Positions 12,426-15,134 of a DNA stretch of 44,901 bases are shown here, piece by piece. The position numbers were made by a program, and so were the translations under genes. The stretch spans positions 1 through 44,901 of the forward strand of contig CAMHGK010000003.1 in the NCBI GenBank assembly GCA_946184695.1, read 5' to 3'. This DNA is from an uncultured Bacteroidales bacterium (GTDB lineage: Bacteria; Bacteroidota; Bacteroidia; Bacteroidales; Paludibacteraceae). Below the pieces are notes generated by a model that did no database searches, was not told the origin of the DNA, and saw only the letters and a list, made by a program, of their open reading frames with translations. Position 1 is the first letter of the stretch. The number at the start of each line of letters is the position of its first letter.

Positions 12426-13091
12426 TTATTCAGCAAACATTGCTGCGGTTTGTGCTGCTTCGCTTTGCGGATATTCATTCATGATAGCCTTATATGCCTT
12501 CTTTGCTGCTTCTTTTTGTCCGAGTGCTTCGTAAGCACGTGCAGCCTTGAGCAGACTCATAGGACTCAGTACATCGTGCTTCATTGCACCTACTTGCTCA
12601 AAGCATTGCGCTGCTTTCTCAAGTTGGTCTGTTTGCACATAAGCATCGCCAAGCAATTGTTTCGAAGCAGCTGCATACGATTTCTCTTTGGTGCTATAGG
12701 ACTTGAGGTAACCGATAGCTTCATCGTAGTTGCCAAGCTGATAACTGCATACGCCTGCACAGTATTTTGCCAACTGACCCTCTTGGTTGTGGTATTTGTC
12801 AGCAATAGCAGCAAACCCCATGCAATCATCATCGTTGCCATTGAGAGCAGTTTCATAGTCCTGTTGCATGAAATAGGTCATGGCTACTGCATTCTCGTTG
12901 CTGGCCTGCTCTTTTTTGGGCTCCAACACGTATGCGCGCACAAGCCAAATGCATAGAGCAATAGCCAAAATGCCTAAGATAACCCATGTGATGAGGTTCT
13001 GATGCTCCTCAATCCAGCGACCTGATGTTGACAGAGCCTCTTGTACGTTTTCAAGTTGCTCGTCTTGTTTTTTTGTTGAATTCTTTGCCAT
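12426..13091 (-). CDS. Membrane-anchored tetratricopeptide-repeat protein
   Basis: 221 aa; one N-terminal TM helix then TPR-like repeats (YDEAIGYLKSYSTKEKSYAAASKQLLGDAYVQTDQLEKAAQCFEQV). Confidence 0.85.
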   Translation of the reverse strand: MAKNSTKKQDEQLENVQEALSTSGRWIEEHQNLITWVILGILAIALCIWLVRAYVLEPKKEQASNENAVAMTYFMQQDYETALNGNDDDCMGFAAIADKYHNQEGQLAKYCAGVCSYQLGNYDEAIGYLKSYSTKEKSYAAASKQLLGDAYVQTDQLEKAAQCFEQVGAMKHDVLSPMSLLKAARAYEALGQKEAAKKAYKAIMNEYPQSEAAQTAAMFAE

Positions 13092-13317
13092 ATTAGTAGT
13101 TTGATTTATTTAATTTCCATAAGTTAGATTCGCTCATTATAATGAGAGAAATATCTGTTTAAGATGTCTTCTGACAAGCATTTTTCGATTATCTGCGCAA
13201 AAGACGCGCAAAGATACTATTTTATTTTCAACTGACGAAATCAAAATGCAAAAAAAATAAAGAATAGATATTCTTTCGTCAAATAGTCGTTTTTTTTGCC
13301 ATTCTCGAAAGATTTAG

Positions 13318-13325
13318 TACCTTTG
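13318..13325 (+). promoter_or_regulatory. -7 box TACCTTTG of a candidate standalone RNA; matching TTTG -33 box at 13295-13298
   Basis: TAnnTTTG with 19-nt spacing to an upstream TTTG, as in Bacteroidota primary-sigma promoters. Confidence 0.7.
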
Positions 13326-13330
13326 CACAT

Positions 13331-13598
13331 AGAAACAACGCAAATTGCTCTGTAGAGCTATTGCAAGAAAGTTTGCTATTGTTTCAAAGAAATAAGCCTT
13401 CGTTGCTAAGAGACCGGAAAACTCTACATTTTTTTCTAAACCGAGTTAAATCGGCCTGACCGATGGCGCGCTGCTAATCCACGCGATGACTTGCCTTGGC
13501 AAAGAGCGGAAGATTCAGGCAGATTACAAAGGTCGGCTGGTGCTCAAATCCTGTAATATAGGAGTTTTTCTCGAGTAAAAAGCAACGGGGCTTTTTTT
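13331..13598 (+). ncRNA. Candidate structured ncRNA (possibly 6S-like/Bacteroidales-1-type; family unverified)
   Basis: No supported ORF; promoter upstream; domain 1 hairpin GAAACAAcGCAAA(13332-13344)/TTTGCtaTTGTTTC(13372-13385); domain 2 closed by CGTTGCT(13401-13407)/AGCAACG(13581-13587) and AAAACTC(13418-13424)/GAGTTTT(13562-13568); inner GCCTGA(13454-13459)/TCAGGC(13515-13520) and TTGCC/GGCAA(13491-13502). Confidence 0.7.
13577..13598 (+). terminator. Intrinsic terminator of the candidate ncRNA
   Basis: AAAAAGC-aacggg-GCTTTTTTT. Confidence 0.7.
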
Positions 13599-13655: not shown

Positions 13656-15134
13656 TTAGTTGTGCCATGCAATGGTAAGCACGATGCCGTTGGTGAGGCT
13701 TGACATGCGTAGTGGCGTCTCTTGTCGGAAATAAGTATAGAGGTCTGCTTGCGAGAGACGAAAACGATATGCACCTTCAACATTAAAATATCTGCCTCTA
13801 TAGCCAATACCGAAAGTGGCATAATGCCTAAATTCACCAAGTCGATAGTCGAGGTCGGTGCGCGTGTCAGCGTAATGAGGCTGAAGAACACTCATGTTCT
13901 TAGAGAGCCACTCATAGGCATATCCTGCTCGCAAATACATACGTTTGTAAGCCCTCCACTCGGCACCGGCATGTAAGCCATGAACATCACTAATCGCATC
14001 GGCAGGATTACTCTTACCTACTATTTTGTGAGCATAGTTGTACTGGATGCTTATAAGGCCGTTGGTTGAGAACTGATAAGCAGCACCGACAGATGTGCGT
14101 AGCGGCAAGGGATAGTTACTTATATTATATGTGTTGATAGGCGTTTGTGAGTTGCCCAGAGTCGAGTAATTCCTGATATTGAATCTGCCGGCAGACGGAC
14201 TGATAAAAGAGATACCTAATCGAAGTTGCTCAATGGGGTGAGCTATTAGTCCGATACTACCTATGACCAGAGTGCTATTAGCTGAGAAGTTGGAAACAAG
14301 TGAGTATTTGGTGTTATTTGCAGCAGTAAGTCCTTCGTTGAAATAGGAAGTCTTACTATAGTTCAGCGACAACACATTAAGTCCGACACCTAAAAACCAT
14401 TGATTAGAGATGTTCAGTGACCATGCCAGTGTAAATTCGTTGTTGCTTCCGAGTTCATTGACAAAGAGGTCGGAATATGTCTGGCGTCCGGTAGCCGACC
14501 ACGAGTTGCCGGAATCGTATGTTTCGATGACATGCTCCGAAGCCATCAGTGCACTCAGCCAACCAATGTCAGCATCATAATACACATCACTACCTCCTTT
14601 TTCCAAATATGTGTGCAGACTGCTTCGATATGGATTGGAGTTGGTAATGTTTGCTACTGCCTGCGCAAGCGACTGACGGTTGAGCAACGAGGAATCATAA
14701 AAGCCTTGACGAGCAAAATTCTTGAGCAGCTGATAGCTAATCATTATATTACTGCGAACCACGCCTGTATATCTCTCGTCGTTTCCAAAAGAAAAGACTA
14801 ACGCAGCTGACGGGGCAGAGAAACTATTGACCTTGTCGGGTCTTTGGTTGCCCACGCCCGTTGCATCCTGTTGCCATGCCAAACTCAGAGCTACCTGACT
14901 TCTGCGCATCACTCCAAGCGAAGCAGGGTTGTCTCTGACAGCGCTCTCATCACCTCCGACTGCTGTCATCGCTCCTCCCATACCAACATATCGAGCAGTA
15001 CCTATCAGGTCAATTTCTGACAGAGTCTGCATATCAAAATCTTGTGCATTTGCAGCAGCGAACAGGCATGCAAGGAGTATTGCGCATAATATTCGCAGCT
15101 TACTTGATGAAATATTATAAATTCTGCTCAGCAT
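13656..15134 (-). CDS. OMPP1/FadL-like outer-membrane beta-barrel protein ('hemin receptor'-type annotation in Bacteroidota)
   Basis: 492 aa; signal peptide, 'GTARYVGMGGAMTAVGGDESAVRDNPASLGVM', alternating beta-strand pattern, aromatic C-terminus. Confidence 0.8.
   Translation of the reverse strand: MLSRIYNISSSKLRILCAILLACLFAAANAQDFDMQTLSEIDLIGTARYVGMGGAMTAVGGDESAVRDNPASLGVMRRSQVALSLAWQQDATGVGNQRPDKVNSFSAPSAALVFSFGNDERYTGVVRSNIMISYQLLKNFARQGFYDSSLLNRQSLAQAVANITNSNPYRSSLHTYLEKGGSDVYYDADIGWLSALMASEHVIETYDSGNSWSATGRQTYSDLFVNELGSNNEFTLAWSLNISNQWFLGVGLNVLSLNYSKTSYFNEGLTAANNTKYSLVSNFSANSTLVIGSIGLIAHPIEQLRLGISFISPSAGRFNIRNYSTLGNSQTPINTYNISNYPLPLRTSVGAAYQFSTNGLISIQYNYAHKIVGKSNPADAISDVHGLHAGAEWRAYKRMYLRAGYAYEWLSKNMSVLQPHYADTRTDLDYRLGEFRHYATFGIGYRGRYFNVEGAYRFRLSQADLYTYFRQETPLRMSSLTNGIVLTIAWHN

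Follow-up and report, generated by a model that had tools for sequence, protein, structure and literature searches.

The RNA gene described here lies in a 44,901-nt stretch of DNA, which we refer to as the window, from an uncultured Bacteroidales bacterium of the Paludibacteraceae (assembly GCA_946184695.1, contig CAMHGK010000003.1, positions 1-44,901 of the forward strand). It is located between two genes on the minus strand. One encodes a TPR protein (12426-13091; Pfam TPR), and its synteny is conserved. The other encodes an outer-membrane-protein-like (OMP) protein of 492 aa (13656-15134), which had no hit in Pfam. On the plus strand, the intervening region contains a promoter of the Bacteroidota sigma-ABfr type (13295-13325), a leader hairpin (13332-13385), a structured core (13394-13598) and a terminal U tract (13592-13598). 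The RNA diverges from the TPR gene and converges with the OMP gene, and about 58 nt lie between its end at 13598 and the OMP stop codon at 13656.

Using cmscan, we found that positions 13398-13598 match the Rfam family RF01693 (Bacteroidales-1) over its full model (1-179 of 179 positions), scoring 61.9 bits, a small margin of 1.9 bits above the cut-off of 60. As expected for this family, the RNA is intergenic and stand-alone in a member of the Bacteroidales. It also shares the family's invariant blocks and has its own TAnnTTTG promoter like the rest of the family. Conversely, its score is low compared to those in other families of the order, which reach up to 184 bits, and it has ACCGGAAAACTC where the family has GGGAAACTC. 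Its leader is also longer, at about 70 nt with a hairpin, than the mostly 7-31 nt, unstructured leaders of other loci. The 6S family RF00013 gave no match up to an E-value of 10. The 6S-Flavo family RF01685 showed weak similarity over 13421-13567, but its 26.2 bits fall short of the gathering score of 85, and a search for this family across the class returned one weak match only. Wehner et al. 2014 is reportedly the main paper on 6S RNA prediction in Bacteroidetes. An earlier, sequence-only reading of this DNA had proposed a stand-alone RNA with its own promoter and terminator, belonging to the 6S or Bacteroidales-1 kind, or else an undescribed RNA, to be checked against these three families. 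The match to RF01693 bears out the first proposal and rejects the second.

The source genome contains a single RF01693 copy, as do nearly all matching genomes. Matches were found in 138 of 150 genomes of the family. Within the genus, 81 of 101 genomes had a match at E ≤ 0.001, while just 17 of the 101 scored above the Rfam cut-off, so this threshold misses most of the genus lineage. Near-identical core motifs were present in MAGs from rumen and gut that carry the label Paludibacteraceae or Bacteroidales.

The fold of the whole region has a free energy of -79.5 kcal/mol (z = -2.6), which was equalled or bettered by 1 of 200 shuffles. The core is predicted to form a long interrupted rod. Its closing helix, P1, pairs AAGCCT-u-CGTTGCT (13394-13407) with AGCAACGGGGCTT (13581-13593), which continues into the U tract. 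The next helix, P2, has CGGAAAACTC (13415-13424) as its 5' arm and GAGTTTTTCTCG (13562-13573) as its 3' arm; in the alignment it is nearly invariant, with CGGAAAACUC paired to GAGUUUU(U)CUCG. Beyond P2 is an A/U-rich central bubble, with a 5' strand at 13425-13442 and a 3' strand at 13546-13561 that contains the invariant AAATCCT and a small UCCU/AGGA hairpin. The rod is completed by an apical arm of helices P3-P6 (13443-13545). In general plan this resembles canonical 6S RNA (RF00013; SsrS in E. coli), which has a closing stem, a central bubble with a small hairpin on the 3' strand and an apical arm.

We assessed this structure in an alignment of 46 sequences, comprising the window and its congeners, with 40 consensus pairs. 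Compensatory changes occurred in 23 of the 40 pairs, compared to 19 in shuffles, and double-change cells numbered 226 against 74. Of the cells at these pairs, 94.2% were paired, a value that dropped to 36-48% after sliding one side. All 11 alignment pairs of P1 vary on both sides, and 12 of the 17 pairs of the apical arm show compensatory changes. Covariation, the check suggested in the sequence-only reading, strongly supports the core at 13394-13598. The two helices that it had named are in place (CGTTGCT at 13401-13407 with AGCAACG at 13581-13587, and AAAACTC at 13418-13424 with GAGTTTT). Invariant bases are concentrated in ACCGGAAAACUC, AAAUCCU and GGAGUUUU, a clustering that would fit a role as template and promoter mimic.

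Together, we consider it very probable that the window RNA is the 6S RNA gene of this organism, running from the sigma-ABfr promoter to the U tract, with a rod fold and, by analogy, a role in RNA polymerase binding and pRNA synthesis. Its transcript would start near 13330 and end in the U tract at 13592-13598. By analogy with known 6S RNAs, the simplest reading is that it sequesters RNA polymerase and is released through pRNA synthesis. The rod would mimic an open promoter and bind the housekeeping polymerase, and release would follow from synthesis of a short pRNA on the bubble's 5' strand, which from 6S biology is the likely template together with 13413-13424. It is very unlikely that the RNA shares only the fold and functions as something other than 6S, for example as a trans-acting sRNA. 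RF01693 was originally published as a motif without an assigned function (PMC2864571), and its Rfam title, "6S-Bacteroidales suggested", offers the 6S label as a suggestion only. Against this stand the rod with its central bubble, the single copy per genome and the partial alignment to 6S-Flavo, in which the ACUC...GGAGUUU frame and the bubble are similar. In addition, a 6S RNA and its pRNAs were observed experimentally in Bacteroides thetaiotaomicron (PMC7366714).

The same paper gives the sigma-ABfr consensus in Bacteroidota as TAnnTTTG at -7 and TTTG near -33. The window fits this consensus as TTTG-N19-TACCTTTG, with the -33 element at 13295-13298 and the -7 element at 13318-13325, separated by a 19-nt spacer. 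With a matrix trained on 43 independent family- or order-level loci, the window promoter scored 11.1, a value equalled by none of 100 shuffles of the same region. Both promoter elements are those named by the sequence-only reading. The 54-nt hairpin that it had placed behind them was found as well (13332-13385, -15.6 kcal/mol), but this is a private leader rather than a family feature. Its stability is not exceptional (P = 0.06 versus dinucleotide shuffles), and the two nearest relatives lack it, their similarity to the window beginning only at 13398/13401. A repeat search of the genome with the hairpin found no full-length second copy. As it is not conserved and lies outside the RF01693 model, we rejected it as a conserved second domain, and the proposed two-domain picture is not supported. 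This lineage-specific leader is probably trimmed or inert. Some congeners with the promoter (L155, L041) have leader hairpins unrelated to that of the window (P 0.01-0.03), and this clade may loosely favour structured leaders.

At the 3' end, the proposed terminator AAAAAGC-aacggg-GCTTTTTTT is present in the sequence, and a U tract follows P1 in nearly all relatives. The small AAAAAGC/GCUUUUU hairpin itself, which has two G-C pairs only, was not listed by a terminator scan. The symmetrical hairpin at 13577-13596, with its A-run and T-run flanks, could serve as a terminator for both the 6S RNA and the OMP gene. It is highly improbable that the region acts as a two-domain switch that controls the RNA itself or the adjacent OMP gene through competition of either the 5' hairpin or the AAAAAGC/GCUUUUU hairpin with the closing helix. 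Both hairpins are able to form in the window, and a hairpin resembling the second, AAAAGC-gcgca-GCTTTT, occurs in L155, the nearest relative. However, pairing of the terminator hairpin across the genus alignment does not exceed that of shuffled letters, the 5' hairpin is not conserved, and the OMP gene is convergent in the window, not downstream. Competition between the terminator hairpin and the closing helix was rejected, and the two alternative folds envisaged earlier lack covariation support genus-wide. That the region is protein-coding or a chance intergenic sequence is barely conceivable: mechanical ORFs overlap it, but no conserved ORF was seen, and the compensatory substitutions, together with the invariant non-coding blocks, refute a coding function.

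The window RNA is of a known kind, and the window itself is ordinary. The gene order OMP, 6S RNA, TPR and ribH is conserved among relatives. Divergence of the RNA from the TPR gene is shared by the window, the family-level outgroups with a findable TPR gene and about eleven congeners. TAnnTTTG is found upstream of it in the outgroups and nearly all divergent congeners. In a TPR tree, the divergent state lies outside and basal to the genus, and two state changes are required. The window arrangement, with its own TAnnTTTG promoter and divergent from the TPR gene, is the ancestral one.

Most sampled congeners have another arrangement, where the 6S RNA is inverted in place and points from OMP to TPR, with a co-directional gene, usually OMP, upstream. 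TAnnTTTG occurs within 100 nt in 10 of 11 divergent congeners, versus 4 of 57 other loci (Fisher P = 4e-8, ignoring kinship and counting genomes rather than independent events). The co-directional loci are from related species, and the background for TAnnTTTG is 3.9% per interval searched. Nearly all of the co-directional loci (L002, L004-L007, L009, L010, L013, L015-L021, L023-L029, L031-L033, L035, L037-L040, L042, L043, L045-L050, L052, L053, L055 and L057-L070) are without a recognisable housekeeping promoter. In 32 of the 55 loci with a recognisable upstream frame, the 6S RNA starts less than 40 nt past the stop codon of the co-directional gene. Because the RNA is inverted, has no recognisable promoter and is mostly this close to a stop codon, its capture as a 3'-UTR product is suggested as the best reading of these sequences, although a promoter that we did not recognise is possible.

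Most upstream frames of the co-directional loci end like OMP. Those of L045, L046 and L053 end like tryptophanyl-tRNA synthetase (trpS-like, as judged by eye), while the gene upstream of the 6S RNA in L052 is Lrp. In these four loci and in L158, where the gene is also trpS-like, the 6S RNA lies about 13-20 nt behind the non-OMP gene, which suggests that it was captured repeatedly into different 3' UTRs.

Ten co-directional loci (L004, L005, L007, L016, L023, L024, L025, L027, L028 and L035) share TTTGGCAY-N5-TTGT, a sigma-54-like -24/-12 element located 29-104 nt ahead of where the 6S RNA starts. RpoN is encoded in all 12 genomes checked. A putative sigma-54 promoter possibly drives the 6S RNA in this subgroup. 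For the genus, we consider the following scenario evenly balanced: the 6S gene would have been inverted, lost its housekeeping promoter and become the 3' end of another mRNA (mostly OMP, in a few cases trpS-like or Lrp), produced by read-through and processing, with one subgroup perhaps using a sigma-54-type promoter instead.

The window 6S RNA is useful for annotation and, because most congeners score below the RF01693 cut-off, as a divergent seed for this family. The comparison between sister species outweighs the window feature itself, as 6S RNA, a global RNA polymerase regulator, appears to exchange its own housekeeping promoter for a site behind protein genes. This natural experiment makes the setting of 6S RNA levels testable across sister species. 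If true, the supply of 6S RNA would be tied to a different signal in the sister species, while the window keeps the ancestral wiring.
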